Source of the DNA: an uncultured Acidobacteriota bacterium
Lineage (GTDB): Bacteria > Acidobacteriota > Vicinamibacteria > Fen-336
DNA: 42,578 nucleotides
Reading direction: 5' to 3'
NCBI GenBank assembly: GCA_902826455.1
Contig: CADEEV010000039.1
Location: 1-42,578 of the forward strand
In this document: positions 9,755-34,417 of the stretch, piece by piece
How positions within the stretch are numbered: position 1 is the first letter of the stretch
Layout: every line of letters starts with the position of its first letter
Notes under the pieces: model-generated
Database searches by the model: none
Told to the model about the DNA's origin: nothing
Seen by the model: the letters and a program-made list of their open reading frames with translations, nothing else
Program-made: the position numbers and the translations under genes

Positions 9755-9757
9755 CCG

Positions 9758-10087: not shown

Positions 10088-10108
10088 GCCTTCTTCGCTC
10101 CTTGGTGA

Positions 10109-11563: not shown

Positions 11564-11623
11564 CGGCCTCCGACACTAGCAGCAACAACGATCGGCGGCA
11601 ACGACGCCACTGGCTTGGCGCCC

Positions 11624-11653
11624 TTGACACTATGTAGCGTACCAATATAGTGT
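11624..11653 (+). promoter_or_regulatory. padR promoter overlapping an inverted repeat (probable autoregulatory operator)
   Basis: TTGACA (11624-11629) and TATAGT (11646-11651), 16 bases apart, make the best sigma70-type promoter in the window. A 7-bp inverted repeat, ACACTAT (11627-11633) and ATAGTGT (11647-11653), overlaps both elements, so a bound dimer would block polymerase. The placement directly before padR suggests autorepression, as is common for PadR regulators. Transcription should start at or one base before the ATG at 11659. Confidence 0.65.
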
Positions 11654-11658
11654 GACGC

Positions 11659-12009
11659 ATGCGCTTCGACGCCACGCGACACCTGCCCCTCACGCCGCCC
11701 TGCTTCCAGGTCCTCGTGGCGCTCGCGGACGGCGAGAAGCACGGCTACGCCATCGTGAAGGAGGTGGAGCGCCGCACGGAGGGCAAGGTGGTGCTGCGGA
11801 CCGGCACGCTCTACCCGATCCTGAAACGGCTGCTCGACGACATGCTGGTGGCGGAGAGCAGCAGCCGGCCCGGGCCGGCCCTCGACGACGAGCGGCGCCG
11901 CTACTACCGGCTGACGCCGCGGGGCCGCGCCGTCGCCCTGGCGGAGGCCGACCGGCTCGAGGAAGCCGTCCTGCAGGCGCGCGCCAAGCTCGCGCTGCAG
12001 AAGGCCTGA
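11659..12009 (+). CDS. PadR family transcriptional regulator
   Basis: This 116-residue protein has a winged-helix DNA-binding domain with PadR hallmarks: LTPPCFQVLVALADGEKHGY at the start of the fold, LRTGTLYPILKRL in the recognition region, and RRRYYRLTPRGR in the wing. A short C-terminal helix (about 92-116) should mediate dimerisation. It probably represses its own operon with the permease gene four bases downstream; small PadR proteins often control neighbouring ABC-type permeases in Acidobacteriota. The inducing signal is unknown. The start codon has no Shine-Dalgarno and coincides with the predicted transcription start. Confidence 0.92.
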   Translation: MRFDATRHLPLTPPCFQVLVALADGEKHGYAIVKEVERRTEGKVVLRTGTLYPILKRLLDDMLVAESSSRPGPALDDERRRYYRLTPRGRAVALAEADRLEEAVLQARAKLALQKA

Positions 12010-12013
12010 GCCG

Positions 12014-14647: not shown

Positions 14648-14687
14648 CCGGAGACGGCCGCGGCGAAGCGCTGATACTCTGCTCGCG

Positions 14688-15449
14688 ATGCCCCGCAAGC
14701 TCGGCCAGCACTTCCTCAAGTCCCACGCCGTCGAGCAGCTCGTGAGGGCGATCGGTCCGCGGCCCGAGCAGACGTTCCTCGAGATCGGCCCGGGCCGTGG
14801 CGCGCTGACGCTGGCGCTCGCCGCGCACGCCCGCGAAGTGGTGGCGATCGAGACCGACTCGGCCCTGGCCCGCGAGCTCGGGCGGCGCGCTCCGCCCAAC
14901 GTGCGCCTCGTTCACGGCGACGCGCTGACCGAAGACCTGCGCTCGCTCGTGCCGGCCGGCAGCCGCTTCGCGGCCAACTTGCCGTACTACATCTCGAGCC
15001 CGCTCTTGCGCCGGATCCTCGAGCTGCGCGGGCACCTCACGGACGCCCACGCGATGGTCCAGGAGGAAGTCGCGGAGCGCATCGCGTCGCCGCCGGGCTC
15101 GAAGGAGTACGGGATCCTCTCCGTGATGTTCGCGCTCCACGCCGACGTCGAGATCGTGCTGCGCCTCGGGCCCGAGGACTTCGCTCCCCCGCCCAAGGTC
15201 TCCTCCGCCGTCCTGCGCATCCGGTTCCTGCCGGTCCCCCGGGCGGAAGTGTCTGACCCGGAAGCCTTTGAGTTGCTGATCCAGCGATCCTTCGCGCGCA
15301 GGCGCCGCACCCTTGAAAACAACCTGCAAGATAGCTATCCTAACCTCAAGGAGAACTTGAGGTTACTCAAGATCGCGGGGTCGAGGCGCGCCGAGACGCT
15401 ATCCGTGGTGGAGTTCGCCGCCCTATCGTCCGTCCTGTCGGAACGCTGA
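14688..15449 (+). CDS. rsmA: 16S rRNA (adenine1518-N6/adenine1519-N6)-dimethyltransferase
   Basis: RsmA (KsgA) dimethylates two adjacent adenines in the 3' hairpin of 16S rRNA during 30S maturation. The 253-residue protein opens with KLGQHFL, the family signature. The SAM-binding motif is EIGPGRGALT (32-41) and the catalytic motif is NLPYY (97-101). The conserved PPPKVSSAV block and a C-terminal helical domain follow. It begins 40 bases after the ADOP gene and is followed after 19 bases by the RNase J gene, forming a translation/RNA-maturation pair. Confidence 0.96.
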   Translation: MPRKLGQHFLKSHAVEQLVRAIGPRPEQTFLEIGPGRGALTLALAAHAREVVAIETDSALARELGRRAPPNVRLVHGDALTEDLRSLVPAGSRFAANLPYYISSPLLRRILELRGHLTDAHAMVQEEVAERIASPPGSKEYGILSVMFALHADVEIVLRLGPEDFAPPPKVSSAVLRIRFLPVPRAEVSDPEAFELLIQRSFARRRRTLENNLQDSYPNLKENLRLLKIAGSRRAETLSVVEFAALSSVLSER

Positions 15450-15468
15450 ACACCCCGACCCGGGAGCC

Positions 15469-17136
15469 ATGGAGCCTCTGAGCGACGACCAATCCGTCCG
15501 TCTCATTCCGCTCGGCGGGCTGGGAGAGTTCGGCCTCAACGCCATGGTGCTCGAGTGGTCCGGGCACCGGCTGCTCGTCGACGCGGGCGTGATGTTCGCG
15601 AGCGCGGAGCTGCCGGGCGTCGACTCGATCGTCCCCGACTTCGCGTACCTGAACGACAGCCCGGGCACGCTCCACGGCATCCTCCTCACCCATGGCCACG
15701 AAGATCACATCGGGGCCCTCTCCTTCGCGCTCGCCGCGGCGCCCGCGCCCGTCTACGGCAGCCCGCTGACGCTCGGCTTCGCCCGCGAGCGCCTGCGCGA
15801 GCGTCACGCCAGCGCCGACCTGCGCGCGCTGCGGCCCGGCCACGCCGAGGAGCTCGGGCCCTTCCGCGTCCACCCGATCCGCGTGGCCCACAGCGTGTCC
15901 GACAGCCTGGCCCTCGCCATCGAAACGCCCGTCGGCGTCGTGCTCGCCAGCGGCGACTTCAAGATCGACGCGAACGCGCCACCCGAGGAGCGCACCGACG
16001 TGGCGGCACTCGCGGAATGGGGCCGGCGCGGCGTGCTCGCCCTGCTCTCGGACAGCACCAACGTGGAGCAGCGCGGCAGCGCCGGCTGCGAGGACGACGT
16101 GGTGCCGGCCTTCGAGGACGTCTTCGAGCGCACCCGCGGCCGCGTCCTCGTGTCGTGCTTCGCGACCTCGATCCCCCGGATGCAGCGCGTCTCCGACGTG
16201 GCGCGGCGCCGGGGCCGGCGCGTGAGCTTCGTGGGCCGCCGCATCGTCGACAACACCGAGGTGGCCCGCGACCTCGGCCTGCTCCGGATCCCGGAGTCGG
16301 AGGTCGTGCCGGCCTCGTACTCGGCCGAGCGCGACCCCGGCTCGCTCTGCCTGTTCGTCTCGGGCAGCCAGGGCGAGCCGCTCTCGGCGCTCTCGATGAT
16401 CAGCCTCGACGAGCACCGCGACGTGGCGGTCGGTCCCGGCGATACCGTCGTGCTGTCGTCCCGCGTGATCCCGGGCAACGAACGGGTCGTGTCGAGGCTC
16501 ATCGGCAACCTGATGCGCCGCGGCTGCGACGTCGTGCACCCGGGCACGGCCCGCGTCCACGTCTCGGGCCACGGTCAGCGCGACGACCTGCTGGAGCTCC
16601 TGCGGCTGGTCCAGCCGAAGTACCTCGTGCCGATCCACGGCGAGTACCGCATGCTGGCGCAGCACGCGCGGCTCGCGGCCGAAGCCTCGCTGCCGGCCGA
16701 CCGGGTGCTGCTGGCCGAGGACGGCGACGTGCTCGCCCTCGGCGCCCACGGCGCCCGCAAGCTGGCCCGCGTCGCGGCGGGCCGGGTCCTCCTCGATCGC
16801 TCGGGCGGCGAGGGCATCGAGGACGTGGTGCTGCGCGACCGGCGCCACCTCTCGGCCGACGGCATCGTGGTCCCCGTCGTGGTCCTCGACAAGCAGACCG
16901 GCCGCGCCACCCAGGCCCCGGAGATCGTGACGCGCGGCTTCGTCGACGCCGAAGGCCAGTCCGAGCTCCTCGAGGAGGCCGGCCGCTTCGTGGTCGAGAG
17001 CATCGAGAAGCACTCCCGCGAGGAGCGCTTCGATCCCTCCCTGACCCGCGAGCGGCTGCGCCAGGAGCTGCGGCGCTTCTTCCGCAAGCGCACCCAGCGG
17101 CGTCCCATGGTCATTCCCGTCGTGATGGAGATTTGA
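15469..17136 (+). CDS. rnj: Ribonuclease J (MBL-fold beta-CASP exo/endonuclease)
   Basis: RNase J processes and degrades RNA with 5' exonuclease and endonuclease activity in bacteria that lack or supplement RNase E. At 555 residues it is full length. The metallo-beta-lactamase zinc motif is HGHEDH (75-80), and the beta-CASP domain holds [11 protein letters not shown] and the HVSGHG block. [11 protein letters not shown] closes the catalytic core. A C-terminal region of about 100 residues, ending in a basic stretch, matches the family. The stop overlaps the ftsK ATG by one base (TGATG). The start at 15469 has a GGGAG upstream. Confidence 0.94.
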
Positions 17137-21604: not shown

Positions 21605-21828
21605 TCCGCGCGGTCACCGAAACCATCACCTGGGTGAAGGTCGAGAAGCCGGTCTTCGACCTGGCCGGGGTGCTGCTCTCGTCCCTCGGCTTCGCCGCGA
21701 TCTGCGCCGGGATCGCGATCTGCTTCGGCTCCGTGCTGGGCGCCGTCTTCATCGCTCGGGCGCTGCGCCGGGAGCGCCGCGGCGAGGACATTCCCCTCGG
21801 CCTCGACCTGGGCGCCCGCTCCAACTAA
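21601..21828 (+). CDS. Small single-helix membrane protein after the amidase
   Basis: This 75-residue protein starts at TTG 21601, whose TTGA overlaps the amidase stop by four bases. GAGGAAG just upstream serves as Shine-Dalgarno. One long hydrophobic segment (about residues 20-52, possibly two short helices) is followed by a charged tail ([11 protein letters not shown]). It has no recognised family; a membrane partner of the amidase or FtsK is possible from position only. Its TAA stop lies inside the first palindrome before phaR. Confidence 0.65.
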
Positions 21829-21847
21829 CGCACCGCGTTATTTTTTA
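21826..21847 (+). terminator. Palindrome followed by T-run: terminator of the ftsK-amidase operon and/or upstream operator
   Basis: TAACGC-acc-GCGTTA (21826-21840) forms a 6-bp stem with a 3-base loop. It is followed by six or seven T residues (21838-21846 region), the layout of an intrinsic terminator, and overlaps the stop codon of the preceding gene. The same half-sites recur 32 bp downstream inside the phaR promoter, so the element is just as likely the distal half of a two-site operator. Confidence 0.5.
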
Positions 21848-21876
21848 TTGACTCGGATAACGCATCGCGTTATCTT
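21848..21876 (+). promoter_or_regulatory. phaR promoter
   Basis: TTGACT (21848-21853) and TATCTT (21871-21876) are separated by 17 bases. The -35 matches consensus at five of six bases and the -10 at four. The start codon GTG begins seven bases after the -10, so the transcript should be leaderless. The spacer holds a palindrome. Confidence 0.5.
21857..21873. promoter_or_regulatory. Palindromic operator in the phaR promoter spacer
   Basis: ATAACGC-atc-GCGTTAT is a perfect 7-bp inverted repeat with a 3-base centre, lying between the -35 and -10. A related palindrome at 21826-21840 is centred 32 bp upstream, about three helical turns, so two dimers could bind the same DNA face. PhaR itself is the simplest candidate ligand (autoregulation), but a TetR-type or other repressor is not excluded. 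Confidence 0.6.
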
Positions 21877-21882
21877 GGGCTG

Positions 21883-22479
21883 GTGACGAAGGACGCCCCG
21901 GGCACCATCAAGCGCTACGCCAATCGGAAGCTGTATGACCCGGCCGGCCGGCGTCACGTCACCCTCGAGGACCTCGCGGTCCGCGTGGGCAAGGGCGAGG
22001 AGATCGTCGTCCAGGACCAGTCGAGCGGCGAGGACATCACGAATTTGGTGCTGGCGCAGGTGGTCCTCGAGACCGTCAAGGACCGGACCGCCAGCATTCC
22101 CCGGCAGGTCCTGACGCGCCTTGTCCGCTTCACCGCCAGCCCGACGCCGTCGGCGCCCGCGCCGACGATCGCCGTGAGGGCGCGCGAGGAGGCCGAGCGC
22201 ATCGTGGCGGGCCTGCTGAGCCGGCAGAAGCTGTCCCTCGAGGACGCCCTCGGCCTGCGCCTCGAGATCGCCCGCACGCTGCAGGGAGTCGTGGCCGAGG
22301 CCCAGCGCGGCCTGGAGCAGGCGCTCCAGGGGCTCGTCGAACGCACCGAGAAGGAAGCCGGCCTGAACCCGTCCCTGGCGACGCTCAAAGAACGGTTGTT
22401 GACCCTCGAAACCTACCTGGCCGCGCCCGGCGCATCGCCGGCCGCGCGACCGAAGACGAAGAAGAAAAGGAGCCGCTGA
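21883..22479 (+). CDS. phaR: PhaR-type polyhydroxyalkanoate synthesis regulator
   Basis: This 198-residue protein starts at GTG 21883. The N-terminal region (about 8-72) is the PHA/PHB accumulation regulator DNA-binding domain, with signatures IKRYANRKLYDP, RHVTLEDLAVRV and GEDITNLVL. Characterised PhaR proteins repress phasin genes and bind both DNA and PHA granules. The rest (about 95-180) is helical, and the tail is Lys/Arg-rich (KTKKKRSR). It overlaps the phasin-like gene by one base, just where a PhaR target would be expected. No PHA synthase (phaC) is in the window, so whether it senses PHA or another inclusion is open. Confidence 0.88.
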   Translation: MTKDAPGTIKRYANRKLYDPAGRRHVTLEDLAVRVGKGEEIVVQDQSSGEDITNLVLAQVVLETVKDRTASIPRQVLTRLVRFTASPTPSAPAPTIAVRAREEAERIVAGLLSRQKLSLEDALGLRLEIARTLQGVVAEAQRGLEQALQGLVERTEKEAGLNPSLATLKERLLTLETYLAAPGASPAARPKTKKKRSR

Positions 22480-22913
22480 TGGCGAGCAAGAAGAAGGCGA
22501 AGAAGGGCCGTACCCAGCCCGCGACCCGCAACGCGGCCGAGGTCGCGCGGGACGCGTGGCAGCAGGCGGTCGCCGCCGTGGTCGACGCCGAGAAGCAGGC
22601 CGAGGCCCAGGTCCGGCAGCTTCTCAAGAAGAACACGATCCACGGCACGGAAGCGGCCCGGGTGCTCGCCGACCTCAAGAAGCGCTTCGCTCGCGAGCGC
22701 AAGCGGGCGGGCAAGGCCCTGGACGCCCAGCTGAAGACCGTGCAGGCGCGCGTCCAGAAGGAAGGCAGCGCCGCCGGCAAGCGCGCCTCCCAGCTGGTGC
22801 AGCAGGCCCTGGCCTCCCTCAACATCCCGAGCCGCCGCGAGATCGCGAACCTCACCCGCACGGTCGAGGCTCTCTCCCGCAAGATCGACTCGCTGCAGCG
22901 CCGCCGGAAGTAG
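22479..22913 (+). CDS. Phasin-like granule-associated protein
   Basis: This 144-residue, strongly basic, mostly helical protein has Lys-rich ends (MASKKKAKKG; LQRRRK). The C-terminal block NIPSRREIANLTRTVEAL (about 114-131) resembles the phasin motif in which a Pro-Ser/Thr-Arg turn is followed by a heptad helix. It starts at ATG 22479, overlapping the phaR stop by one base, with AAAAGGAG as Shine-Dalgarno. It likely coats storage granules and may tether them to DNA through its basic ends, as proposed for PhaF/PhaM-type proteins. A shorter relative is encoded at 25406-25711. The assignment rests on motif, composition and the phaR neighbour. Confidence 0.75.
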   Translation: MASKKKAKKGRTQPATRNAAEVARDAWQQAVAAVVDAEKQAEAQVRQLLKKNTIHGTEAARVLADLKKRFARERKRAGKALDAQLKTVQARVQKEGSAAGKRASQLVQQALASLNIPSRREIANLTRTVEALSRKIDSLQRRRK

Positions 22914-22922
22914 GCCGTTCCC

Positions 22923-23390
22923 CTAGCGCGCCGCCAGGTCGCTGCTCCAGGTGTCGACCGCGATGCGCCAGCGCGCGTCCTTGCCGCGCCGCAGCACGAG
23001 CAGGTACTTGCCATCGTCGCGGTTGGGCGAGCCCTGGGCCGGCGCCAGCTCGAAGGCGTACTGCCCGGCGTCGTAGCCCAGGTCGCCGTCGGCGCCCGCC
23101 GTTCCCGAGCGCACCTGGAGCGTGACCTTGCCGGCCTTCAGCAGGTTCTCGAAATACGCGACCGCCGCGGCCCGGCCTCGCGTCGGGGGCGCGTTGGGCG
23201 GCATCAGCAGCGCGTCCTCCGTGTAGAGGTCGCCGAGCTTCGAGGCGTCGCCGGCGCTGAGGGCGTCGGCGAACGCCTGGTTCACGAGCTTCAAGGCGGC
23301 GAGGTCCTGGGCGGAAGCGGGCGCGGCGCTCGCGTCCCGGGCGAGAGCGAGGGCGAGGCTTGCGGCAACGGCGATCCATGCAGTCTTCAT
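22923..23390 (-). CDS. Secreted SnoaL/DUF4440-like protein
   Basis: This 155-residue protein has a signal peptide (residues 1-22, MKTAWIAVAASLALALARDASA). The mature part is a cone-shaped NTF2-like fold: the start LVNQAFADALSAGDASKLGDLY, then YTEDALLMPP and the closing strand WRIAVDTWSSD match DUF4440/SnoaL-like proteins. Such proteins bind small hydrophobic ligands or act as isomerase-like enzymes; no catalytic residue can be assigned. AAGGAC precedes the start. It converges with the phasin-like gene, nine bases apart, and lies 21 bases after the acyltransferase in the same direction. Confidence 0.82.
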   Translation of the reverse strand: MKTAWIAVAASLALALARDASAAPASAQDLAALKLVNQAFADALSAGDASKLGDLYTEDALLMPPNAPPTRGRAAAVAYFENLLKAGKVTLQVRSGTAGADGDLGYDAGQYAFELAPAQGSPNRDDGKYLLVLRRGKDARWRIAVDTWSSDLAAR

Positions 23391-23411
23391 CGGTGTCCTT
23401 AGAGAGAGGCG

Positions 23412-24425
23412 TCAGCCGAACCAGATCGAGCGACGGCGGGCCAGGCGGCCGTCGATCATGCGCTGGACGGTGGCGCGCACCTGTTCCGAGAGTCGATTGA
23501 CGAGGATGGGATCCTCGGCCGCCTCGGCACCGTAGCCGTCGGTCGCGACCGGGTCCGCGAAGTCGAGGCTCCACTTCGTCGGCAACGGCACGAGGCCCAG
23601 AGGGCCGAGCAGCGGGAACGTCGGCGTGATGGGAAAGTACGGCAGGCCGAGGGGACGGCCGAGCCAGTCGGCCTTTGCCACGACCGGGTGGATCTCCTCG
23701 CCGCCCACGACCGCGCACGGCACGATGGGGGCGCCGGTGCGCAGCGCGAGACGCACGAAGCCGCCGCGCCCGAAGCGCGCGAGCCGGTACCGGTCCTTGA
23801 AACGCTTGCCGACGCCCTTGACCCCCTCGGGGAACACGCCCACGAGCTCCCCCGAGCGCAGCAGCCGCTCGCCGTTCTCGGGGTTGGCGCGCACGGCGCC
23901 GCTCTTGCTGAGCCACGGCGCGAGGAACGGCAGCAGCGCGAACATGTCGAGGGCGAGCATCCGGCACTCGCGACGCGCCGGGTGCTCGTGGCGCACGGCC
24001 ACGTTGATCATCAGGCCGTCGTAGGGCAGGACGCCGGAGTGGTTCGCGACGATCAGCCCGGCCCCCGTCGCCGGCACGTTCTCGACGCCGGTGGCCTCGA
24101 CGCGCCACCACACGGTATAGAGGAACTCGAAGAACGGGCGCACCGTCTCGGTGAACTTGCGGTCGAAGCCGAACTCGTCGACCTCCTCGGAGTGCCACGA
24201 GAAGTACGCGGCCGACAGGGCGCGCGCGAGGCTGTCCCAGCGCACGCCGGCCAGGCCTTCCTGGAGAAGGCGGGCCACCGCGACCGGCAGCCCCTCGCGA
24301 GCCGTCTCCCGGCCCGCGGCCTCCGCGCGCCGCAGCGCGTCCTCGAGAGCCCGCACCCGGTCGCGCAGGGCGTCGGCCTCCGACGTGGGGCGCCGCATGG
24401 GAAGCACCTTCGCCACCGGGCTCAC
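23412..24425 (-). CDS. Lysophospholipid acyltransferase-like protein (LPLAT family)
   Basis: The 337-residue reading starts at GTG 24425, whose GTGA overlaps the stop of the SDR gene; ATG 24398 is an alternative with AAGGTG upstream (328 residues). The core has the acyltransferase block NHSGVLPYD (the His-Asp catalytic pair) and GVFPEGVKG (the acceptor-phosphate motif), followed by RLALRTGAPIVPCAVVGGEE, as in 1-acylglycerol-phosphate acyltransferases and related enzymes. The N-terminal 60 residues are a charged coiled-coil-like helix. The likely reaction is transfer of an acyl chain from acyl-CoA or acyl-ACP to a lysolipid or alcohol. The linked reductase and SDR genes point to membrane or neutral lipid synthesis. 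Confidence 0.85.
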   Translation of the reverse strand: MSPVAKVLPMRRPTSEADALRDRVRALEDALRRAEAAGRETAREGLPVAVARLLQEGLAGVRWDSLARALSAAYFSWHSEEVDEFGFDRKFTETVRPFFEFLYTVWWRVEATGVENVPATGAGLIVANHSGVLPYDGLMINVAVRHEHPARRECRMLALDMFALLPFLAPWLSKSGAVRANPENGERLLRSGELVGVFPEGVKGVGKRFKDRYRLARFGRGGFVRLALRTGAPIVPCAVVGGEEIHPVVAKADWLGRPLGLPYFPITPTFPLLGPLGLVPLPTKWSLDFADPVATDGYGAEAAEDPILVNRLSEQVRATVQRMIDGRLARRRSIWFG

Positions 24426-25402
24426 GCGCGGGCCTCGGCCACGGCCGCGACGCCCTCCGGGTGCCGGTACCTGAGATAGGCGAGAAGCGCGTCGCGGCTG
24501 CTGTAGCGCGCCGTGAACCCGAGCTCGCGCCGGGCCTTCTCGCCGTCCGCGACGCACGGGTAGCGTGCGTAGTCGAGGAACGCGCCCGGCGCTTCGACGA
24601 GGCCGGCGGCCCACAGCGCGTCGGAGGCGGCGTAGGCGATCGGATGCGGGATCGGCACCGGCACCTTCTCCGCCAGGTGCAGTGCGGCCACGAGCGGGAT
24701 GGACGCCCGCGGCACGACGTTGAACGCCCCGGCGCGCGGTCGCGCCAGCGCCGCTTCGAAAGCGTCGAGGGCGTCGTCCGGGTGCAGGAGCTGCACCAGC
24801 GGGTCGAACCCGAGCAGCGTCGGCACGACGCGCTTGTCGAAGAGCCGTGTGTAGAAGGTGCGGACGCCCGGGCCGAAGAGCGGTGCGACGCGCAGGATCG
24901 TGACCACGAGATCCGGATAGCGGCGGGCGAAGGCGCTCGCGTGCTGCTCGGCCTCGAGCTTGTCGCGTACCCAGGCGAGGCGCGCCCCGGCCTCGAGGGG
25001 ACGGTCCTCGGTGAGGAAGCTCGGGTTCTGGCCGCGCGCTCCGTACACCGCGGTGAAGGAGCGCATCACCACGTGCTCGACGCCCGCGGCCGCGGCGGCG
25101 GCCATGACCGCCAGCGTCCCGATCGACTCGAGCTCGTGGGAGTGGCTGCGGTCGCGCCGGGGCGTCGTGAAGAACGCGGCGTGGACGAGGGTCGTGACCG
25201 ACTCCTCCTTCAGGATCTTCAACAGCCGCTCGTCGGCCGCCGGCTCCGTGAGATCGAGCTCCCGGTGCCTCACGTCCAGGGTCGCCGGCGGCGCCGCGAT
25301 GTCGAGGGCCAGCACGGCGTCCCCGCCCCGCGCCTCGACCGCCCGCCGCAGCAGCCGCGAGCCGAGAAGCGACGACGTGCCCGTGATGGCGAGGCGCGAC
25401 AC
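24422..25402 (-). CDS. NAD-dependent epimerase/dehydratase-like extended SDR with Tyr-to-Trp change
   Basis: This 326-residue protein has a Rossmann N-terminus, ITGTSSLLGSRL (glycine motif 8-14). MRSFTAVYG occupies the usual active-site serine region. The catalytic YxxxK is present only as WVRDK (Trp144 to Lys148), so the general-acid tyrosine appears to be replaced. The codon reads TGG without ambiguity. The protein may therefore bind a nucleotide or sugar-like ligand without classical dehydrogenase chemistry, or use a shifted residue. It sits four bases before the second phasin-like gene stop and overlaps the acyltransferase start, so it belongs to the same operon. Substrate is unknown. Confidence 0.83.
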   Translation of the reverse strand: MSRLAITGTSSLLGSRLLRRAVEARGGDAVLALDIAAPPATLDVRHRELDLTEPAADERLLKILKEESVTTLVHAAFFTTPRRDRSHSHELESIGTLAVMAAAAAAGVEHVVMRSFTAVYGARGQNPSFLTEDRPLEAGARLAWVRDKLEAEQHASAFARRYPDLVVTILRVAPLFGPGVRTFYTRLFDKRVVPTLLGFDPLVQLLHPDDALDAFEAALARPRAGAFNVVPRASIPLVAALHLAEKVPVPIPHPIAYAASDALWAAGLVEAPGAFLDYARYPCVADGEKARRELGFTARYSSRDALLAYLRYRHPEGVAAVAEARA

Positions 25403-25405
25403 GCG

Positions 25406-25711
25406 TCAGGCCTTCTTCCGGGCCTTCTTGGCCGACTTCTTCGCGGCCGCCTTCATCTTCGCCTTGGCCTCCGACAGCTCGGCCTCGAGGGCTTCGATGC
25501 GGCGCACCGCTTTCTTGAACTCGGTGCGCGTCGGGACGTTCATCGCCTTCAAGGCGCGTCCCGCGGCCTCGTCGAGCTTCTCCTTGCCCTTCCACGCCGA
25601 CTGCACCGCGCTCATGAAGCGAGGGTTCGCCATGAGCTCGCTCGAGACCTGCTGGAACACCTCCTCGCCTCGGGCCTTCAGCCTCTCGAACATCGACTCT
25701 TCCTCGCTCAT
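25406..25711 (-). CDS. Second phasin-like small basic protein
   Basis: This 101-residue protein has an acidic start (MSEEESMFERLKARGEE), a helical middle, the block NVPTRTEFKKAVRRIEAL and a Lys/Ala-rich histone-like tail (AKKSAKKARKKA). The central block echoes NIPSRREIANLTRTVEAL of the phasin-like protein at 22479-22913, suggesting a shared family. The ATG at 25711 overlaps the stop of the acyl-CoA reductase-like gene (ATGA). A longer in-frame reading exists upstream but lies inside that gene. Proposed role: a granule or lipid-surface protein that may also touch DNA. This is inference from motif and composition. Confidence 0.68.
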   Translation of the reverse strand: MSEEESMFERLKARGEEVFQQVSSELMANPRFMSAVQSAWKGKEKLDEAAGRALKAMNVPTRTEFKKAVRRIEALEAELSEAKAKMKAAAKKSAKKARKKA

Positions 25712-27591
25712 GGGCGTGCTCCTCGCTTGGACCGCGGACCCCGCGGCTCGAAAGTCTTGAGATCGATCGCCTCGGCCACGAGCTCGCGGAACTCGCCGGC
25801 CGGGATCGCGGCCACCTGCCGGCCGGTCGCGTACTCGATGTCCGAGAGCGCCGCGGCCCAGACCTCTTCGCGCCGCGCCACGGCGTCGGCGTCGCGGACC
25901 TGGCCGTAGCGCTGCACGAAGCGATTGTGCCGGCACAGCATGCGGAAGGCGTGACGCGTGTCGGGTCGCCGCAAGGCGAGACCGAGCAGCCGCACGTCGT
26001 TGCCGACCTCGTGGACCGGCTGGCCCCACTCGCCGTAGCTGCCGAAGATCGTGGACAGGCGCTCCAGGGCGGCGCCGAGCTTCGGCTCCCCCACGCGCTC
26101 CAGCACCGCCTTCACGAGGGGCATGGTGAGGTTGCGGTAGAGCGTGGGATCGGCGAGGCGCACGCGCACGCCGAGCTCCTCCCGGATGATCCGGAGCATG
26201 TCCTCCGAGCGGATGCGGTTGTCCGTGGCGAGGTGGATGCGGACGCCGATCGACTCGGGCACGGTCAGGGCCGCGAGGATCCCGGCCGCCACCCTGTCGA
26301 CCGGCACGAGGTTCATCTCCGCCGTGGGATCGCCCGGGAACACGCAGGCCACGGCGGCGATGGCGCGCGCCTTGGGCATCCCCAGCACGTCGCCGCTGGC
26401 GCGCTCGACCGCCTCCTTGGCGCGGCCGAAGGCGTTGATCGGCGCGTTCACGACCTTCGTGTCGCCCCGGTTGTTGCCCGTGGCGGCGTCGCCGATCACG
26501 ATCGAGGGCAGGAGCTGGGCGACGCGCAGCCCGCGCTCGACGAGGAAGCGGTCGGTCTCGATCGACGCCATCGCCTTCGTGAGCTCGTAGAAGTTGTTGT
26601 AGAAGTGGCGCGGGAAGACGAGGGCGCTCTCCTGGGCGACGAAGCGCTTCTTGCGGCCGTGAATGTACGAGGTCTCGATCGCCACGTGCTGGACGAACGC
26701 CGAGCCCGGCGCCTCCTGGACCGACAGGGAGAAGCGCAGGGCGTTCAGGCAGCCGACGACGTTGGCGCGGAACGAGGTCTCGTAGGGATCGTCGAAGGAG
26801 ACGCTCGCGGCGCAGTGCACGACGTGGGTGAGGGTCCGCCGCAGGCGCTCCTGCTCGGCCGCCGCGATGCCGAGGCCGCTCGCCTCGATGTCTCCCGCCA
26901 CGAAGCGGAACTTGCGCGCCCGGCTCCCCTTGATACCGAGACGCTTCAGCAGCAGGGCGCCGCGCTCGGCCGGAGCCAGCACCTTCACGACCTCGCGGGT
27001 CTTCGGGTCGCGCAGCGTCTCGGACCGCACCACCGCGACGATCTCGACGATCCGGCGATCGCCGGCCGCCTGGCTCAGGATCTCCTTGCCGACGAAGCCC
27101 GTGGCGCCGGTCAGGAGCACGCGCAGGGCCGGGCTCCGGCCGCGCTCCTTCAGCCGCCGCGCCGCCTCGCGCTGCAGGCGCGCGACGCGCTCGCGCACCT
27201 GGCGCTCGCCGAGGTGGGTCGGCTCGCGGAAGCGGAAGGCGAAGGAGCGGTCCACGACGCCGATCAGGCTTTTCGCCCGCTGCCCCGCCGCCGCGCTGCC
27301 GGACGCGGCCGAGACCCCGCTCGCGATCCAGCGGCCCAGGGAGTTGACGGCTCGCAGGCCGCGCCGCACGACCGCCTCGCGGCCCGTGAGGCCGACGACC
27401 TGGTTCGCGACGTACTGGGCCGCCACCTCGACGGGGTGCCGGTCGCGATGGGCGTGGACCAGCAGCTCGTCGGGGTCGATCGGGCCGCGGATCTCGTGGC
27501 CGGTGGCGAGGCTGACGCGGGCGATGTAGCGGCCGGGCGAGGCGTCGATCTCCGCCTCGGCCTGCGCCGGGCGCTTCCGCGAGGCCGCCAT
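25708..27591 (-). CDS. Fatty acyl-CoA reductase-like extended SDR (NAD_binding_4)
   Basis: This 627-residue protein starts at ATG 27591. After a 155-residue N-terminal extension of unknown fold (with PHPVEV-like RHPVEVAAQYVANQVVG near residue 52) comes the Rossmann motif LLTGATGFVGKE (159-170). Active-site Tyr335 and Lys339 are in YELTK, with HVAIETSYIHG before them. This is the male-sterility/fatty acyl-CoA reductase domain, which reduces acyl-CoA thioesters with NADPH to aldehyde or alcohol for wax or ether lipids. The C-terminal 150 residues are helical and may be a FAR_C-like part. It leads the minus-strand operon with the second phasin-like gene, the SDR and the acyltransferase. A carboxylic-acid-reductase-like or sterol SDR role cannot be excluded. 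Confidence 0.82.
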   Translation of the reverse strand: MAASRKRPAQAEAEIDASPGRYIARVSLATGHEIRGPIDPDELLVHAHRDRHPVEVAAQYVANQVVGLTGREAVVRRGLRAVNSLGRWIASGVSAASGSAAAGQRAKSLIGVVDRSFAFRFREPTHLGERQVRERVARLQREAARRLKERGRSPALRVLLTGATGFVGKEILSQAAGDRRIVEIVAVVRSETLRDPKTREVVKVLAPAERGALLLKRLGIKGSRARKFRFVAGDIEASGLGIAAAEQERLRRTLTHVVHCAASVSFDDPYETSFRANVVGCLNALRFSLSVQEAPGSAFVQHVAIETSYIHGRKKRFVAQESALVFPRHFYNNFYELTKAMASIETDRFLVERGLRVAQLLPSIVIGDAATGNNRGDTKVVNAPINAFGRAKEAVERASGDVLGMPKARAIAAVACVFPGDPTAEMNLVPVDRVAAGILAALTVPESIGVRIHLATDNRIRSEDMLRIIREELGVRVRLADPTLYRNLTMPLVKAVLERVGEPKLGAALERLSTIFGSYGEWGQPVHEVGNDVRLLGLALRRPDTRHAFRMLCRHNRFVQRYGQVRDADAVARREEVWAAALSDIEYATGRQVAAIPAGEFRELVAEAIDLKTFEPRGPRSKRGARP

Positions 27592-27669: not shown

Positions 27670-30408
27670 ATGTTGTCGACGTTGGGAGACGTGCGCCCCG
27701 AGGAGCGGCGCGGCGCCGCGGCGGCGTTCTTGACGATCCTCGCCATCCTCGCAGGCCACACCCTGCTGGAGACGGCGCGCGACGCGCTGTTCCTCGCCCG
27801 CATTCCCACCAACCGCCTGCCGATCATGTACCTCGCGATCGCAGGCATCGCCTTCGCCACGTCGCGCATCCGGTCGCGGCGGGTGGCCGGCCTCTCGAGC
27901 CGCGCCACGCTGGCCCTGCTCCTGGCCGGCGCCGCCCTCGCGAACTTCGGGCTGTGGGAGCTGAGCGAGGTGCGCCGGGGCCGCTGGCTCCTGTACACGC
28001 TGTACATCTGGTGCGGCCTGTTCGGGACCGTGGCGAGCGTCCAGTTCTACAGCGTGCTCTCCGAGGTGTACACCCTCACCCAGGCGAAGCGGCTCTACCG
28101 CTTCATCGGCGTCGGCAGCGTGCTCGGGGCGATCGTGGGCGCCGGCATCGCCGGCCTCCTGGCGGCGGCGCTGCCGGCACGCCACCTGATCCTGGCGAGC
28201 GCCTGTTTCCTGCTGCTCGCGGCCGCCGGGCCGATGCTCCTGCCGCGGCCCGTGACCGACGGCGCTCCCATGGGCGCCGCGACCCCGGCCTTCTCGGTGT
28301 CGGCCGCCTACAACCTGATCCTGCGCCACCCCTATGCCCGCCCCCTGGCCGGCCTGGTGCTGTCGTCGACCATGGCCGTCACGCTGGCCGACTTCATGTT
28401 CAAGAGCGCCGTCGTCAAGTACGTCCCGGGCGACGCCCTCGGCAGCTTCTTCGGCGGCGTCTACCTGCTGCTGAACGCGCTCTCGCTCGCGGTCCAGGTG
28501 GGCCTCGTGGGATGGCTCCTGGGGCGGCTCGGCGTCCACCGCGCCCTGATCGTGCTGCCGGCCTTCCTGATCCTGGGCTCCGCGGGATTCCTGGTGACGG
28601 GCAGCCTGGTGGCGGCCCTCTGGCTCAAGACCGCGGACGGCGCCTTGCGCTACTCGCTCCACCGCACCGCGAGCGAGCTGCTCTTCCTGCCCCTGCCCGA
28701 CGCCATCCGCGCGCGGGCGAAGCCGTTCATCGACGTCGCCGGCCAGCGCGGCGGCCAGGCCCTCGCCTCGCTGCTGATCCTCACGCCCGTCGCCTTCATC
28801 CCCCAGGGCGCCTTCCTCTCGATCACGCTGCTCGTGCTCTCGGTGCTGTGGATCGTGACGGCGGCGGACCTCAAGGCCAACTACCTCGACCTGTTCCGGG
28901 CGGCGCTCCGCGAGGGCTCGATCTCCACGAGCCTCGACGTACCGACCCTGGACCTCGACTCCCTCGAGGCGCTCTTCGCCGCCCTCAACAGCAGCGACGA
29001 CGCCGAGGTCCTGGGCGCTCTCGACCTGCTCCACGAGCAGGGCAAGGCGCGCCTCATCCCGGCGCTCATCCTCTACCACCCCTCGCGGGCGGTGGTACTC
29101 CATGCCTTCGACCTGTTCATCGCCGCGAAGCGCACCGACTACCTGCCGGTCGCCGACCGCCTGCTGACCCATCCCGACCCCGAGATCCGCGCCGGCGCCC
29201 TGCGCGCCCGCCTGGTGGTCGCGATCGACGCCGACGTCCTGCGCAAGGCGCGCGAGGACCCGAGCCCGCGCGTGCGCGCCGCGGCCCTCGTGGGTCTCGT
29301 CTCCGCCGGTCTCGTCTCCGACGACGCCCAGGCCGACATCGACGCGCTCACCGACACGCAGTCGCCCGAGGCCGGCGTCGCGCTGGCCCGCGCGATCCGC
29401 CTCCAGCCCGGCCACGTCTTCGCAGAAACGCTCCTCGAGCTGTCCGAGGCGCCCGAGGCCGAGGTACTGATCGAGGTCGCGCAGGCGATGACCACGATGC
29501 CCGACGAGCGCTTCCACGCGGCGCTGCTCCCGATGCTCGCGCGACGCGAAGTGAGGCGCCATGCCCGCGCCGCGTTGCGGGCTCACGGCCCGGCGGCCCT
29601 CGCCTACCTCGCCGAGGCCCTCGCCGATCGCGCGCTGCCCCAGGAGATCCGGCGCCACGTGCCGCGCACGATCAGCCAGTTTCCGCCCGAGGACGCGGTC
29701 CCGGTGCTGCTCGCGCACCTGGCGGACGAGCCCGACGGCATGGTGCGCTTCAAGGTCCTGCGGGGTCTCGGGCGCATCCACACGGACCATCCCGAGGTGA
29801 GGATGGACGCGCGCGTCCTGAAGGACGCCACGGCGGCCACCCTCGAGGCGGCCTACCGGCTCGTGCACTGGCAGACGATCCTCGAGGCCGGGGTCCGGGC
29901 GCTGCCCGAGCGCGCGACGCCGACCCAGAGCCTGCTGCTGGCCCTCGTCCACGACAAGCGCGCGAACGCCGTCGAGCGCCTGTTCCGGCTGCTGGGCCTG
30001 CAGTTCCGCCACGAGGACCTGCGCAGCATCTACCGGGGCCGGAACAGCGCGAGCCCGAAGATCCGCGCCAGCAGCCGCGAGCTCCTCGAGAACCTGCTCG
30101 AGCCGCCCGTGCGCGACGCGGTGCTGGCCCTCCAGGACGACACGGGCGACGCGCAGCGCCTCGGGGCCGCGGCGCCCTTCTACCGCGTCCCGATCCTCGA
30201 CTACGAGATCCTGCTCGGCATGATGCTCGAGGAGGCCAGCGAGTCGCTGTGCTGCCTCGCCGCCCATCACATCGCCGAGCTCGGCCTCACGAGCTTCCGC
30301 CCGCGCCTCGAGGCCCTGCTCAAGGAGCAGCGCGGCTTCTTCGCGACCCGCGTCCTCGAGCGGGCCCTGGTGCTCCTCGACCAGCCACGGAGGCGCGCCC
30401 TTGCCTGA
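27670..30408 (+). CDS. Nucleotide-transporter-like MFS membrane protein fused to HEAT repeats
   Basis: This 912-residue protein has about twelve hydrophobic helices in residues 15-420, in an arrangement resembling Npt1/ATP-ADP translocase-type major facilitator proteins (for example LYTLYIWCGLFGTVASVQFY and the loop SEVYTLTQAKRLYRFIGVGS). From about 430 onward it is soluble, alpha-helical and HEAT-like, with repeats such as HPDPEIRAGALRARLVV and EDPSPRVRAAALVGLVSAG. The soluble part should face the cytoplasm as a docking surface. Transport of ATP or ADP is not implied: similar proteins in free-living bacteria have no known substrate. The stop region overlaps the next gene, so the two are translationally coupled. 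Confidence 0.78.
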   Translation: MLSTLGDVRPEERRGAAAAFLTILAILAGHTLLETARDALFLARIPTNRLPIMYLAIAGIAFATSRIRSRRVAGLSSRATLALLLAGAALANFGLWELSEVRRGRWLLYTLYIWCGLFGTVASVQFYSVLSEVYTLTQAKRLYRFIGVGSVLGAIVGAGIAGLLAAALPARHLILASACFLLLAAAGPMLLPRPVTDGAPMGAATPAFSVSAAYNLILRHPYARPLAGLVLSSTMAVTLADFMFKSAVVKYVPGDALGSFFGGVYLLLNALSLAVQVGLVGWLLGRLGVHRALIVLPAFLILGSAGFLVTGSLVAALWLKTADGALRYSLHRTASELLFLPLPDAIRARAKPFIDVAGQRGGQALASLLILTPVAFIPQGAFLSITLLVLSVLWIVTAADLKANYLDLFRAALREGSISTSLDVPTLDLDSLEALFAALNSSDDAEVLGALDLLHEQGKARLIPALILYHPSRAVVLHAFDLFIAAKRTDYLPVADRLLTHPDPEIRAGALRARLVVAIDADVLRKAREDPSPRVRAAALVGLVSAGLVSDDAQADIDALTDTQSPEAGVALARAIRLQPGHVFAETLLELSEAPEAEVLIEVAQAMTTMPDERFHAALLPMLARREVRRHARAALRAHGPAALAYLAEALADRALPQEIRRHVPRTISQFPPEDAVPVLLAHLADEPDGMVRFKVLRGLGRIHTDHPEVRMDARVLKDATAATLEAAYRLVHWQTILEAGVRALPERATPTQSLLLALVHDKRANAVERLFRLLGLQFRHEDLRSIYRGRNSASPKIRASSRELLENLLEPPVRDAVLALQDDTGDAQRLGAAAPFYRVPILDYEILLGMMLEEASESLCCLAAHHIAELGLTSFRPRLEALLKEQRGFFATRVLERALVLLDQPRRRALA

Positions 30409-31363
30409 GCCCGGCGGGATGATCGGTCCGCTCGAGCGGATCCTCTACCTGAAGAAGATGCCGGCGTTCAGCCAGCTGCCGATCGAGGCCCTCGCCGCGA
30501 TCGCCGACGTGCTGCGCGAGCGGCAGTTCCCGAAGGGCGCGATCGTCCAGCGCGAAGGCGAGGCGGTGACGCGGATCCAGATCGTCCTCGACGGCCACAT
30601 CACCGCGTCCCGCAACGGCGCGGCGATCGCCGGCGGCGTGCCCGGAACGCCCCTGGGCGCCTTGCCCGTGCTGGCCCGCGACGCCCACGGCTACCAGGGC
30701 GTCGCCGAGACCGACACCTACGCCCTCGAGCTCGATTCCGACGCGCTCCTGGAGGTCTGCGAGGACCACTTCGTGATCGTCCACCAGATCCTGCGCTACC
30801 TGTCCCAGTGGGTCGTGGAGGTCGAGCAGCACCTCGGCTCCCCGAGGCGCCCGATCGCGCTTCCCTTCACGCGTCTCGCGAGCGGCGAGCTCGACCTCGT
30901 GGAGCGCATCTTCTTCCTCCGCCAGATCACGCCCTTCGCGCGCAGCAGCATCAACGCCCTCGCGGAGCTGTCGCGCGGCCTCACCGAGGTCCAGTTCCGG
31001 CCGAGCGTGCCGCTCTGGGCCGAAGGCGACCCCGCGCACTACGTGCTGCTGATCGTCGAGGGCGAGGTGGGCTGCGTGTCCGCCCGCTACGGCCACAGCT
31101 TCCAGGCGGGTCCGGGCCAGGCGGTGGCGGCGATGGAGGCGGTCGCCGAGGTGCCCCACTGGTTCGCGGCCACGACCCTCACGCCGGTCACGGCCCTGCA
31201 CGGCACCGTCGAGTCGCTGATCGACGTGTTCGAGGACAACTTCGAGATGGCCATGGACTACGCGGCGCTCCTGGCCCGGGGCCTGCTCTCGTTCCTCGAG
31301 AAGGCCGGACCGGACGTCGAGATCCCCAGGATCATCCTGCCCGCGCAGCGCCCGCTGGACTAG
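30401..31363 (+). CDS. Protein with two degenerate cyclic-nucleotide-binding-like domains
   Basis: This 320-residue protein starts at TTG 30401 with a well-placed GGAGG (30389-30393); an ATG at 30419 is less well supported. Two cNMP-binding-like beta-roll modules cover about residues 20-140 and 165-300, each opening with a helix and the pattern I..L.(K/R)..P(A/F) (ILYLKKMPAFSQL; IFFLRQITPFARS). Neither has the normal phosphate-binding cassette with its conserved arginine, so cAMP/cGMP binding is doubtful. No DNA-binding domain is attached. Overlap with the MFS-HEAT gene by eight bases suggests it works with that protein, perhaps as its regulatory partner. Confidence 0.78.
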   Translation: MPEPGGMIGPLERILYLKKMPAFSQLPIEALAAIADVLRERQFPKGAIVQREGEAVTRIQIVLDGHITASRNGAAIAGGVPGTPLGALPVLARDAHGYQGVAETDTYALELDSDALLEVCEDHFVIVHQILRYLSQWVVEVEQHLGSPRRPIALPFTRLASGELDLVERIFFLRQITPFARSSINALAELSRGLTEVQFRPSVPLWAEGDPAHYVLLIVEGEVGCVSARYGHSFQAGPGQAVAAMEAVAEVPHWFAATTLTPVTALHGTVESLIDVFEDNFEMAMDYAALLARGLLSFLEKAGPDVEIPRIILPAQRPLD

Positions 31364-31366
31364 GGC

Positions 31367-34300
31367 ATGCCCGGCGCGACCGCCCTCCAGCTCGCACTCC
31401 TCCTGGCGCTCGCGGGGCCGGCCGGCGCCGGCAGCGTGTCCATCGCCGTCGCGCCCGCGCCCTTCGGCCGCCTTCCCTGGACCGTGTTCGACGAGCACGC
31501 GGGCCTGCCGCAGCACACGATCGTGGACCTCGTCGCCGATGCCGAGGGCTACGTCTGGGCCGCCACCCAGGACGGCGCCGCGCGCTTCGACGGCCGCAGC
31601 TGGCGCGTGGTCCCGCTGCCGCGCTCGATGCGCACCAACTACCCGCGGGTGCTGCGGCGGGCCCGCGACGGCGGGCTCTGGTTCGGGACCTTCGACGGCG
31701 GCCTCGCCCACCTGCGCGACGGCATCTGGACGATCACGAGCGCGTCCAAGGGACTGCCGAGCAATCGCGTCCGCGGCCTTCTCGAGACCGCGGACGGCCT
31801 GTGGATCGCGACCGAGGGCGGCGTGGCCCGTCTTCGCGACGGACGCCTCACCGTGTACGGGGCCGGCTCGGGGCTGCCCAGCCTCGACACCGAGGGCCTG
31901 TGCGAGACGACGCTCCTCGATGGTACGCGCCAGCTCGTGGTCGGGACGACCCAGGGCCTCGCGCGCTTCGACGGCTCGCGCTTCGTGCCGGTGGACGGGC
32001 CGGCGCCGCTCCTCGGCCACCGCATCGGCGACATCGTCGAGAGCGCCGGCCTCCACGGCGGGCCCGCGCTCTGGATCACCTCCTACGGCGCGGGCATGGG
32101 GGTCTTCGAGGCCGGCGCCTGGAGCCACCTCGACACGGCCTCGGGTCTGCCCAGCAACGTCGAGGTGCTGACGCCCAGCACGGCGGCCGACGGCTCGCCG
32201 GCGCTGTGGATCGGCACCGAAGGCGGCCTGCTGCGCTTCGAGCACGGACGCTTCACGCTCTACGACGAGCGCAGCGGCCTGCCGATCCGCATCGTCTGGA
32301 AGGTGCTCGAGACCACGGCCTCGAACGGGCTCAAGACGCTCTGGCTGGGGACCTGGGGCGGCGGCGTGGTGCGGCTCTCGCCGAACCCGTGGGTCGCCTT
32401 CGACGCCACGAACGGCATGCCCACGGGCTCGGTGACCGCCGCCCTCGCCACGCGTGGCGACGACGGCTCGCGGACCGTGTGGGCGGGCACGTCCGACGGC
32501 GAGGTCGTGCGCATCACGGACTCCGGGGGCGAGCGCGTGCCGCTGCCCGCGCCGCTGCGCCACGCGATCGTCTTCTCGATGCTCGAGACCCGCGCCGGCG
32601 ACGCGCGGGCGCTCTGGGTCGCATCCTTCGGCGGCGGCCTCGGCAAGCTCGAGGGCGGCCGCTGGACCGTGTTCGACAGGTCCGTGCTCCCGAACGAGCG
32701 CGTCTACCGTCTGCTCGAGACGCGCTCCGCGGCCGGCGCGAGCGTGCTCTGGCTCGCGACCGAAGGCGGCATCGGCCGCCTCGAGAGCGGCCGCTGGACC
32801 CACTATCGCGCGCAGGACGGGTTGCCGAGCGAGATCGTGACGCAGGTGCTCGAGACGACCGGAGCCGACGGGTCGCGCACGCTCTGGGCCGCGACCACGC
32901 GGGGGGTGGCGCGTCTCGAGGGCGAACGCTGGGTGCCGGTCCCGGGCCAGGGGCTCGCCACCGACAACACCCCGATCCTGGCGGCCACGACCGACGCCTC
33001 CGGGACGCGCTGGCTGTGGGCCGCGACCTACGGAGGCGGCGCGTCGCGGCGGCGCCTCGACGTGCGCGAGGATCGCTGGCAGACGTTCACGATGGCGAGC
33101 CTTCCCGGCCTGCCCTCCGACACCGTGCTGGGCGTCGCCCAGGACCGTGCGCGCCGCATCTACCTGTTCACCACCCGCGGCGTCGCCCGGCTCGGACCCC
33201 GGACGCCCACGGCCGAGAACCCGGCCCCGTTCGACGTCGACGTCTTCACGACCGAGGACGGGCTGCCGAGCGGCGACTGCCAGCAGGGCGCGTCGCTCGT
33301 GGACGACGCCGGCCGGGTCTGGGTGGGAACCGCCCGCGGCCTCGGCCAGTTCGATCCCGGGCGCGAGACGCCCGACCGCGCGCCGAAGCCGCTGCGGATC
33401 GAGTCGGCCGTCCTCGGCAGCCACGGACGGCCGCTGCGCGCCGGCGAGTCCCTCGCCCATTCGGATCGCAACCTGTCCTTCGAGGCGGCCTTGCTCGCCT
33501 ACGCCGGCGAGTCGCGGATCCGCTATCGCTACCAGCTCGCGGGCTTCGACCCGGAGCCGCTCGAGTGGACCGCGAGCGCCGTGAAGGAGTACACGAACCT
33601 CGGGGCCGGGGCCTACGCGCTGCGCGTGTGGGGGCGCGACGCGCGCGGCAACGTGTCGGGGCCGGCGGAGCTGCCCTTCGTGATCCGGCCGGCGCCCTGG
33701 CTGACGCTGTGGGCCTTTGGAGCCTATGCGCTCGCGGCCGCCGCCCTCGCCTGGGGCGGCGTGCGCTTGCGGCTGCGCACGCTCTCGGCCCGCACGCGCC
33801 AGCTCGAGGGCATGGTGGCCGAGCGCACCCGCGAGCTCGCGGCCTCGCGGGACAAGCTCGAGGAGCTCGCGTCGATGGACGCGCTCACCGACGTGGCCAA
33901 CCGGCGCCGCTTCGACGCCGTGCTCGCGGACGAGTGGCGGCGGGCCCAGCGCGGCGGCCACCGCGTGTCGATCGCGCTCCTGGACGTCGACTTCTTCAAG
34001 CGCTTCAACGACCGCTATGGCCATGCCCGAGGCGACGCCTGCCTCCACGCCGTGGCCCAGGCCGTGGCGTCGCGCTGCCGTCGGCCGACGGACCTCGTCG
34101 CGCGCTACGGCGGCGAGGAGTTCGCCCTCGTGCTCTCCGAGACCGAGCCCGCCGGCGTGCGCGCCATGCTCCGCGAGGTGCTGGCGGCGGTCGACGCCCT
34201 GCAGATCGAGCACGCCGACTCCGCCGTCGCTCCCTACGTGACGGTGAGCCTCGGCGCCGTGACCTTGAGGCCCGCGCCGGGAAGCGACTTCCACGACGCG

Positions 34301-34417
34301 CTCGAGCGGGCGGACCGGCTGCTCTACGCGGCGAAGGAAGGGGGCCGCCATCACGCGGTCCACGAGGCCGAGGGCGGGCCGAGCCAGCGCCTCGACCCCG
34401 GAGGCGGCCCGCTCTAG
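31367..34417 (+). CDS. Diguanylate cyclase with two-propeller sensor domain
   Basis: This 1016-residue protein has a signal peptide (1-22) and then about fourteen WD-like propeller repeats with the pattern LET...G...LW.(A/G)T..G..RL..G.W, enough for two seven-bladed propellers outside the membrane. A Y_Y_Y domain (about 675-765), one transmembrane helix (about 780-800), a short coiled coil and a C-terminal GGDEF domain follow. The active site GGEEF (near 917) is intact, and an RxxD inhibitory site (RPTD) lies five residues before it. It should make c-di-GMP in response to an extracytoplasmic ligand, with product feedback. It starts three bases after the cNMP-like gene and is probably in the same operon. 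Confidence 0.9.
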   Translation: MPGATALQLALLLALAGPAGAGSVSIAVAPAPFGRLPWTVFDEHAGLPQHTIVDLVADAEGYVWAATQDGAARFDGRSWRVVPLPRSMRTNYPRVLRRARDGGLWFGTFDGGLAHLRDGIWTITSASKGLPSNRVRGLLETADGLWIATEGGVARLRDGRLTVYGAGSGLPSLDTEGLCETTLLDGTRQLVVGTTQGLARFDGSRFVPVDGPAPLLGHRIGDIVESAGLHGGPALWITSYGAGMGVFEAGAWSHLDTASGLPSNVEVLTPSTAADGSPALWIGTEGGLLRFEHGRFTLYDERSGLPIRIVWKVLETTASNGLKTLWLGTWGGGVVRLSPNPWVAFDATNGMPTGSVTAALATRGDDGSRTVWAGTSDGEVVRITDSGGERVPLPAPLRHAIVFSMLETRAGDARALWVASFGGGLGKLEGGRWTVFDRSVLPNERVYRLLETRSAAGASVLWLATEGGIGRLESGRWTHYRAQDGLPSEIVTQVLETTGADGSRTLWAATTRGVARLEGERWVPVPGQGLATDNTPILAATTDASGTRWLWAATYGGGASRRRLDVREDRWQTFTMASLPGLPSDTVLGVAQDRARRIYLFTTRGVARLGPRTPTAENPAPFDVDVFTTEDGLPSGDCQQGASLVDDAGRVWVGTARGLGQFDPGRETPDRAPKPLRIESAVLGSHGRPLRAGESLAHSDRNLSFEAALLAYAGESRIRYRYQLAGFDPEPLEWTASAVKEYTNLGAGAYALRVWGRDARGNVSGPAELPFVIRPAPWLTLWAFGAYALAAAALAWGGVRLRLRTLSARTRQLEGMVAERTRELAASRDKLEELASMDALTDVANRRRFDAVLADEWRRAQRGGHRVSIALLDVDFFKRFNDRYGHARGDACLHAVAQAVASRCRRPTDLVARYGGEEFALVLSETEPAGVRAMLREVLAAVDALQIEHADSAVAPYVTVSLGAVTLRPAPGSDFHDALERADRLLYAAKEGGRHHAVHEAEGGPSQRLDPGGGPL

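Follow-up and report, generated by a model that had tools for sequence, protein, structure and literature searches.

We analysed a 42,578-nucleotide stretch of DNA from an uncultured Acidobacteriota bacterium (contig CADEEV010000039.1; Vicinamibacteria, Fen-336), referred to here as the window, in which two convergent operons (21826-27591) encode a PhaR-like regulator and two phasin-like proteins (phasin1 and phasin2) together with predicted lipid enzymes. We favour, with a probability of about 0.55, the reading that this locus is a PhaR-controlled inclusion module which is uncoupled from polyhydroxyalkanoate (PHA), and whose enzymes and coat proteins would serve another inclusion. PhaR and phasin genes are commonly taken as a sign of PHA storage, an annotation that would mislead here because the whole order keeps the PhaR-operator-phasin circuit and no PHA synthase was found.

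The PhaR circuit and searches for a PHA synthase

The order was sampled with 17 genomes, including that of the window (G000; 5.26 Mb in 108 contigs, about 100% complete by estimate, the window being contig 39), and ten of the 17 were at least 90% complete. Neither PhaC_N (PF07167) nor the class III PhaC model TIGR01836 had a match in any of them (0/17 for each). The lack of a PHA synthase, which a preliminary description of this DNA had claimed, therefore holds at the locus, in the window's own genome and in the order as far as these models reach. As a positive control, a genome of the same class (G183) carries a class III-type PhaC beside its PhaR gene, which TIGR01836 detected at 1e-86, indicating that an enzyme of this type would not have escaped detection in the order. 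Across the class (n = 193), PhaR was found in 23 and PhaC_N in three, with both only in G183. A classical PHA operon was rejected, the two PhaC models being negative.

Two palindromes, predicted to be PhaR operators, are spaced by 32 bp on either side of the -35 element of the phaR promoter in the window. When up to one mismatch to TAACGCNNCGCGTTA was allowed, these were the only sites in the genome, and 200 randomised versions of the window contained no such pair. A pair spaced by 30-33 bp was present at the same place in all 14 genomes of the order that encode PhaR; these genomes are related, and the recurrences are not 14 independent events. The proximal site, which overlaps the promoter, matched TRACGC-NNN-GCGTYA at 12 of 12 positions with an R-N-Y centre in every one of the 14, the distal site was looser (9-12 of 12 positions), and nearly all relatives also retained the -35 element TTGAC(A) at the corresponding position. 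Of the nine PhaR genes that the class has outside the order, eight had paired CGC-RNY-GCG sites, including the PhaR-phasin-phasin-patatin loci of two families (f5 and f85). The flanks of these sites mostly differed from those of the order and often read TGCCGC-RNY-GCGGCA, and the genomes concerned, f5 and f85 included, had no match to PhaC_N, the model used for them.

The PhaR motif determined by footprinting is TGCRNYGCASMA (PMC6201568), a second published motif is YTKNTGCRNYGCANMAR (PMC12849132), and the core for Sinorhizobium meliloti PhaR is YGCRNYGCR, two copies of which flank the -35 elements of phaP1 and phaP2 (PMC12542648). At the level of sequence, the proximal-site core CGC-RNY-GCG fits this published core in 14/14 genomes. 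Since the conserved operator core equals the experimentally derived PhaR core, PhaR is very likely an active autorepressor that also represses phasin1, which is how the circuit works in PHA producers, though here without PHA. In G306 and G307, two genomes that belong to a single genus, an additional TRACGC-RNY-GCGTYA site was seen upstream of orthologous DUF1302 genes (L181:3020 and L182:2194; the assignment, PF06980, was checked on the L182 copy), and this gene is a possible second target of PhaR.

The regulator matched the Pfam domain PHB_acc_N at 72 bits (cut-off 25), and this domain was found in all 23 aligned PhaR homologues. Against the NCBIfam equivalog TIGR01848 it scored 62.9 bits, far under the cut-off of 109.45; it thus carries the family domain but falls outside the equivalog. 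In the alignment, the C-terminus of PhaR from the order (EAERI..LLxRGRLSLEEALxLRxEI) was missing from PhaR of other Vicinamibacteria, and it is possibly a different inclusion-binding part. The Pfam domain for the C-terminal granule-binding region, PHB_acc, was not among the families shown for the 23 PhaR members, and this says little because the PhaR encoded beside phaC has no match either.

Phasin1 matched Pfam Phasin (PF05597) at 32.5 bits, above the gathering cut-off of 28.8, and its relatives reached 48 bits; phasin2 alone scored 22.7 bits, under the cut-off. Alignment of the two family profiles with hhalign gave a probability of 96% over 41 columns, pairing NIPSRxE with NVPTRxE, which bears out the Pro-Ser/Thr-Arg and heptad block earlier described as common to both proteins. 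Lys-rich tails are present on PhaR, phasin1 and phasin2. Searches of PDB profiles with PhaR and phasin1 returned engineered proteins only, or nothing.

Gene order and enzymes of the locus

The rightward operon consists of phaR and phasin1. The leftward operon runs from a short-chain dehydrogenase/reductase (SDR)-type acyl-thioester reductase (FAR) through phasin2 and a further SDR to a PlsC-superfamily acyltransferase (AT). The junctions read TGATG at phaR/phasin1, ATGA at FAR/phasin2 and GTGA at SDR/AT, with a short gap at phasin2/SDR, and the two operons lie between a ribonuclease J-ftsK-amidase run and the gene for a TLC-type nucleotide transporter (Table 1). All six proteins named for this locus in the preliminary description were recovered with Pfam or NCBIfam models, phasin2 below threshold.

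The arrangement rnj-ftsK-amiC-phaR-phasin1-[patatin]-><-AT-SDR-phasin2-FAR is conserved in two families of the order, the adjacency to rnj and ftsK being seen where the contigs of relatives extend that far. The named relatives that share it are metagenome-assembled Acidobacteriota, several of them labelled Vicinamibacteria. Because all the genes except that for DUF4440 recur in the same arrangement, it is beyond doubt, as judged from sequence conservation, that the module genes are truly coding. Phasins above the cut-off were present in 15 of the 17 genomes and AT (E <= 1e-30) in 13, the window's own included, and across the order phasin2 is kept between FAR and SDR, and SDR between phasin2 and AT. 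The convergent pairing survives across the two families despite insertions between the operons. In every relative whose contig covers the spot, phasin1 is immediately followed by a patatin-like gene (PF01734; the two copies tested scored about 90 bits). PhaR, phasin and AT are all missing together from G302, a 98% complete genome, which fits loss of the module as a whole unit.

The preliminary description had proposed that its idea would fall if phaA, phaB and phaC were found elsewhere with their own phasins and the gene order was not conserved in relatives. No phaC was found (phaA and phaB were not searched for), and the order is conserved, the relatives adding a lipase gene and conserved PhaR operators to the neighbourhood.

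Table 1. Positions in the window of the predicted operators, the promoter and the genes of the locus
Feature	Position	Strand	Description
Distal PhaR operator (predicted)	21826..21840		TAACGC-ACC-GCGTTA, perfect 6+6 palindrome, upstream of -35
Sigma70-like promoter	21848..21876	+	TTGACT-17-TATCTT
Proximal PhaR operator (predicted)	21858..21872		TAACGC-ATC-GCGTTA, within -35/-10 spacer, touches -10
PhaR-like regulator, 198 aa	21883..22479	+	PHB_acc_N DNA-binding domain and order-specific C-terminal region
Phasin1, 144 aa	22479..22913	+	Lys-rich N-terminus; C-terminal NIPSRxE-heptad block; Pfam Phasin
DUF4440/SnoaL-like gene	22923..23390	-	Outside the conserved module
AT	23412..24425	-	PF01553, PF03982; alternative ATG start 24398; motif NHSGVLPYDG (H-X6-D)
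Extended SDR, NAD-dependent epimerase/dehydratase type	24422..25402	-	PF01370, 64.6 bits
Phasin2, 101 aa	25406..25711	-	NVPTRxE-heptad block, Lys-rich C-terminal tail
FAR, ~627 aa	25708..27591	-	Acyl-thioester reductase-like extended SDR, PF07993, Y-x3-K (YELTK)

FAR matched PF07993 (Male sterility protein) at 97 bits (cut-off 20.1) and TIGR01746 at 80 bits, and lay under every curated NCBIfam cut-off; Y334 and K338 were invariant in an alignment of 51 sequences. The structural model (pLDDT 83, 51 sequences) was closest in fold to the R domains of nonribosomal peptide synthetases (NRPS) and polyketide synthases (PKS), to that of carboxylic acid reductase and to the plant fatty acyl reductase 7eoz, with Z scores of 26.4 to 4w4t and 23.6 to 7eoz. 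Extended SDR sugar epimerases were nearly tied (Z about 24), and because they score nearly as high, the reductase reading rests on PF07993, TIGR01746 and the fold together. Sequence and model place FAR among the thioester and acyl reductases, and it may act on long-chain acyl thioesters. On contigs of Eremiobacterota and similar metagenome-assembled genomes, the main FAR gene has, immediately upstream and on the other strand, a second, divergent homologue (25-28% identity; L082, L085, L086, L087 and L091, ~9150-9990).

AT matched PF01553 at 69 bits and PF03982 (DAGAT) at 22.4 bits, barely over the cut-off of 22. The model was of moderate quality (pLDDT 73), and its best solved fold was PlsC 5kym (TMt 0.63-0.65); a sequence search gave no solved relative. 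H120 and D127 were invariant, with a non-standard H-X6-D spacing. Divergent SDR-AT pairs whose AT is 38-44% identical were seen in other Vicinamibacteria (L114, L115 and L116, ~9900-16000), where they sit, by eye, among ketosynthase-, acyl carrier protein-, HMG-CoA-reductase-like and CrtI-like genes in an apparent lipid or polyketide cluster.

Beyond FAR, the region 27670-31363 of the window encodes a 912-aa fusion of a TLC-type ATP/ADP transporter and HEAT repeats, whose gene overlaps the start of one for what looks by eye like a double cyclic-nucleotide-binding protein. A long open reading frame (31367-34417) has, by eye, repeated propeller-like sensor motifs and a GGEEF-type diguanylate cyclase end.

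Favoured and alternative readings

In the favoured reading, PhaR would bind both operators of its own promoter and repress phaR-phasin1, along with the lipase gene in relatives. Once a hydrophobic inclusion forms, PhaR would be titrated onto its surface and repression would be lifted, so that phasin1 would be made and coat the inclusion, with the lipase co-expressed in relatives. The leftward operon would supply phasin2 as a second coat protein, while FAR, SDR and AT would convert acyl thioesters by reduction into fatty aldehydes or alcohols and transfer acyl groups to an alcohol or glycerolipid; the patatin of relatives would break the inclusion lipid down. The titration step is proposed by analogy with PHA producers, from which titration of PhaR by granules is taken (PMC12849132), and with MLDSR of Rhodococcus lipid droplets, an autorepressor titrated by the inclusion (PMC5504291). 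Since the linked operon encodes predicted acyl-thioester-reducing and acylating enzymes, the inclusion is most likely a neutral lipid (triacylglycerol (TAG)-like, wax-ester-like or alkyl lipid) and not a polyester. The genes present, their arrangement in operons, their conservation, the fit of the operators to the PhaR motif and the failure to find a PHA synthase are read from the DNA; from these we infer PhaR binding, titration, an inclusion and its chemistry.

The preliminary description had suggested that PhaR and the phasins coat an inclusion other than PHA, such as wax ester or neutral lipid. The searches for a synthase, the conserved gene order and the linkage to lipid enzymes speak for the first part. 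The wax-ester or TAG identity fared less well, as the window's own genome lacks wax ester synthase/diacylglycerol acyltransferase (WS/DGAT) and FAR is widespread without the module.

A number of observations weigh against the favoured reading. The circuit is well supported, but the inclusion and its chemistry are what we infer, and we know of no cultured member of the order and no inclusion described for it. WS_DGAT_cat (PF03007) had no match in the window's own genome, for which WS/DGAT-based synthesis of wax or TAG was rejected, and was found in three of the 17 genomes of the order. Patatin had no match in the window, where the DUF4440/SnoaL-like gene holds its position. No palindrome of the PhaR-site type was present upstream of FAR in 11 loci; relaxed YGCRNYGCR matches occurred in two of these (CGCGTCGCG at -198 in the window and CGCGACGCG at -170 in L106) and were put down to chance in GC-rich DNA, and control of the FAR operon by PhaR was rejected. 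FAR stands alone in many Acidobacteriota, a few Planctomycetota, Eremiobacterota and other genomes, and the loci fetched from outside the order had no phasin-, AT- or PhaR-like gene around it. Because FAR is so widespread without phasin or AT nearby, the gene distribution marks it as recruited into, or retained beside, the module, and not as specific to it. Conversely, PhaR-phasin-patatin loci without FAR or AT nearby occur in other Vicinamibacteria, which together with the stand-alone FAR suggests that the halves may serve different purposes.

The main rival is built on this last point and holds that the two operons are adjacent and functionally separate, with phaR-phasin1-(patatin) serving some inclusion and FAR-phasin2-SDR-AT making a membrane or envelope lipid with phasin2 as a small helper. 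The independent occurrence of each half, the lack of a PhaR operator before FAR and the divergent SDR-AT pairs in biosynthetic-looking clusters elsewhere are in its favour; we nevertheless regard it as unlikely, as both families retain the convergent pairing despite insertions, phasin2 contains the phasin block and its gene overlaps the stop codon of FAR, and G302 lacks PhaR, phasin and AT jointly. It is also conceivable, though distinctly improbable, that the phasin-like proteins bind nucleoid or membrane without any storage inclusion and that PhaR senses another cue, such as lipid stress. The Lys-rich tails would suit such a role, the lipids bound by HBHA are phosphoinositides, not neutral lipids (PMC6176652), and rhizobial PhaR regulons extend beyond polyhydroxybutyrate (PMC6201568, PMC12542648). 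Against this, the Pfam Phasin scores are substantial (48 bits for phasin1 in relatives, 70-100 bits for the f5 and f85 phasins), and the Lys-tailed HBHA and MLDS are themselves needed for, or located on, lipid inclusions. Least credible to us is that a PHA system is present and its synthase escaped the searches, being very divergent or lying in an assembly gap. PhaR and phasins were defined on PHA producers, the genomes are drafts, and PhaC_N detects the G183 class III PhaC only just, but both models gave 0/17 in a sample with ten genomes at least 90% complete, and an enzyme like that of G183 would be visible to TIGR01836.

Comparison with known systems

By domain and operator, the PhaR-phasin part is of a known kind. 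The literature searched yielded no paper on PhaR or phasin without PhaC in Acidobacteriota, nor on the whole system, a PhaR circuit lacking a PHA synthase beside lipid genes. We tentatively propose, at somewhat less than even odds, that PhaR and phasins are not PHA-specific and that in Vicinamibacteria this circuit controls a lipid inclusion other than polyester, with a reductase, an acyltransferase and a lipase of its own, in parallel to actinobacterial MLDS/MLDSR. Should the inclusion sensed by PhaR be a different one, the family would have a hydrophobic surface as its ligand rather than PHA in particular, and the locus would provide a candidate lipid-inclusion system for Acidobacteriota, which are abundant in soil and about whose storage physiology little is known.

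The PhaR-PhaP circuit of Ralstonia eutropha, S. meliloti and Bradyrhizobium likewise has a PHB_acc_N regulator controlling a phasin gene and paired palindromes with the core YGC-RNY-GCR around the -35 element. Unlike in PHA producers, no PHA synthase was found in the 17 genomes, the operators have TRA..TYA flanks with C as the outer base, the PhaR C-terminus is order-specific, and lipid enzymes and a lipase are neighbours. MLDSR-MLDS of Rhodococcus jostii similarly pairs a regulator and a coat gene in an overlapping operon with two promoter motifs, but its binding box, GNTWGCTNNTGCTANC, is unlike the operators described here. Compared by features, mycobacterial HBHA and Rhodococcus TadA are also small proteins with a Lys-rich tail and a link to lipid inclusions.

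FAR shares the extended SDR fold, GxxGxxG and YxxxK with the R domains of NRPS/PKS and carboxylic acid reductase and with plant DPW; it differs in being a stand-alone protein with its own N-terminal region of ~150 aa. AT has the PlsC fold in common with PlsC and, as in TMEM68 (DIESL), both PF01553 and PF03982 are present, although the catalytic spacing is H-X6-D in AT, H-X4-D in typical members and H-X5-D in DIESL (H130/D136). DIESL alone gives rise to TAG and inclusions in Escherichia coli, and we regard the likeness of AT to it as an analogy and not as membership of the same family.

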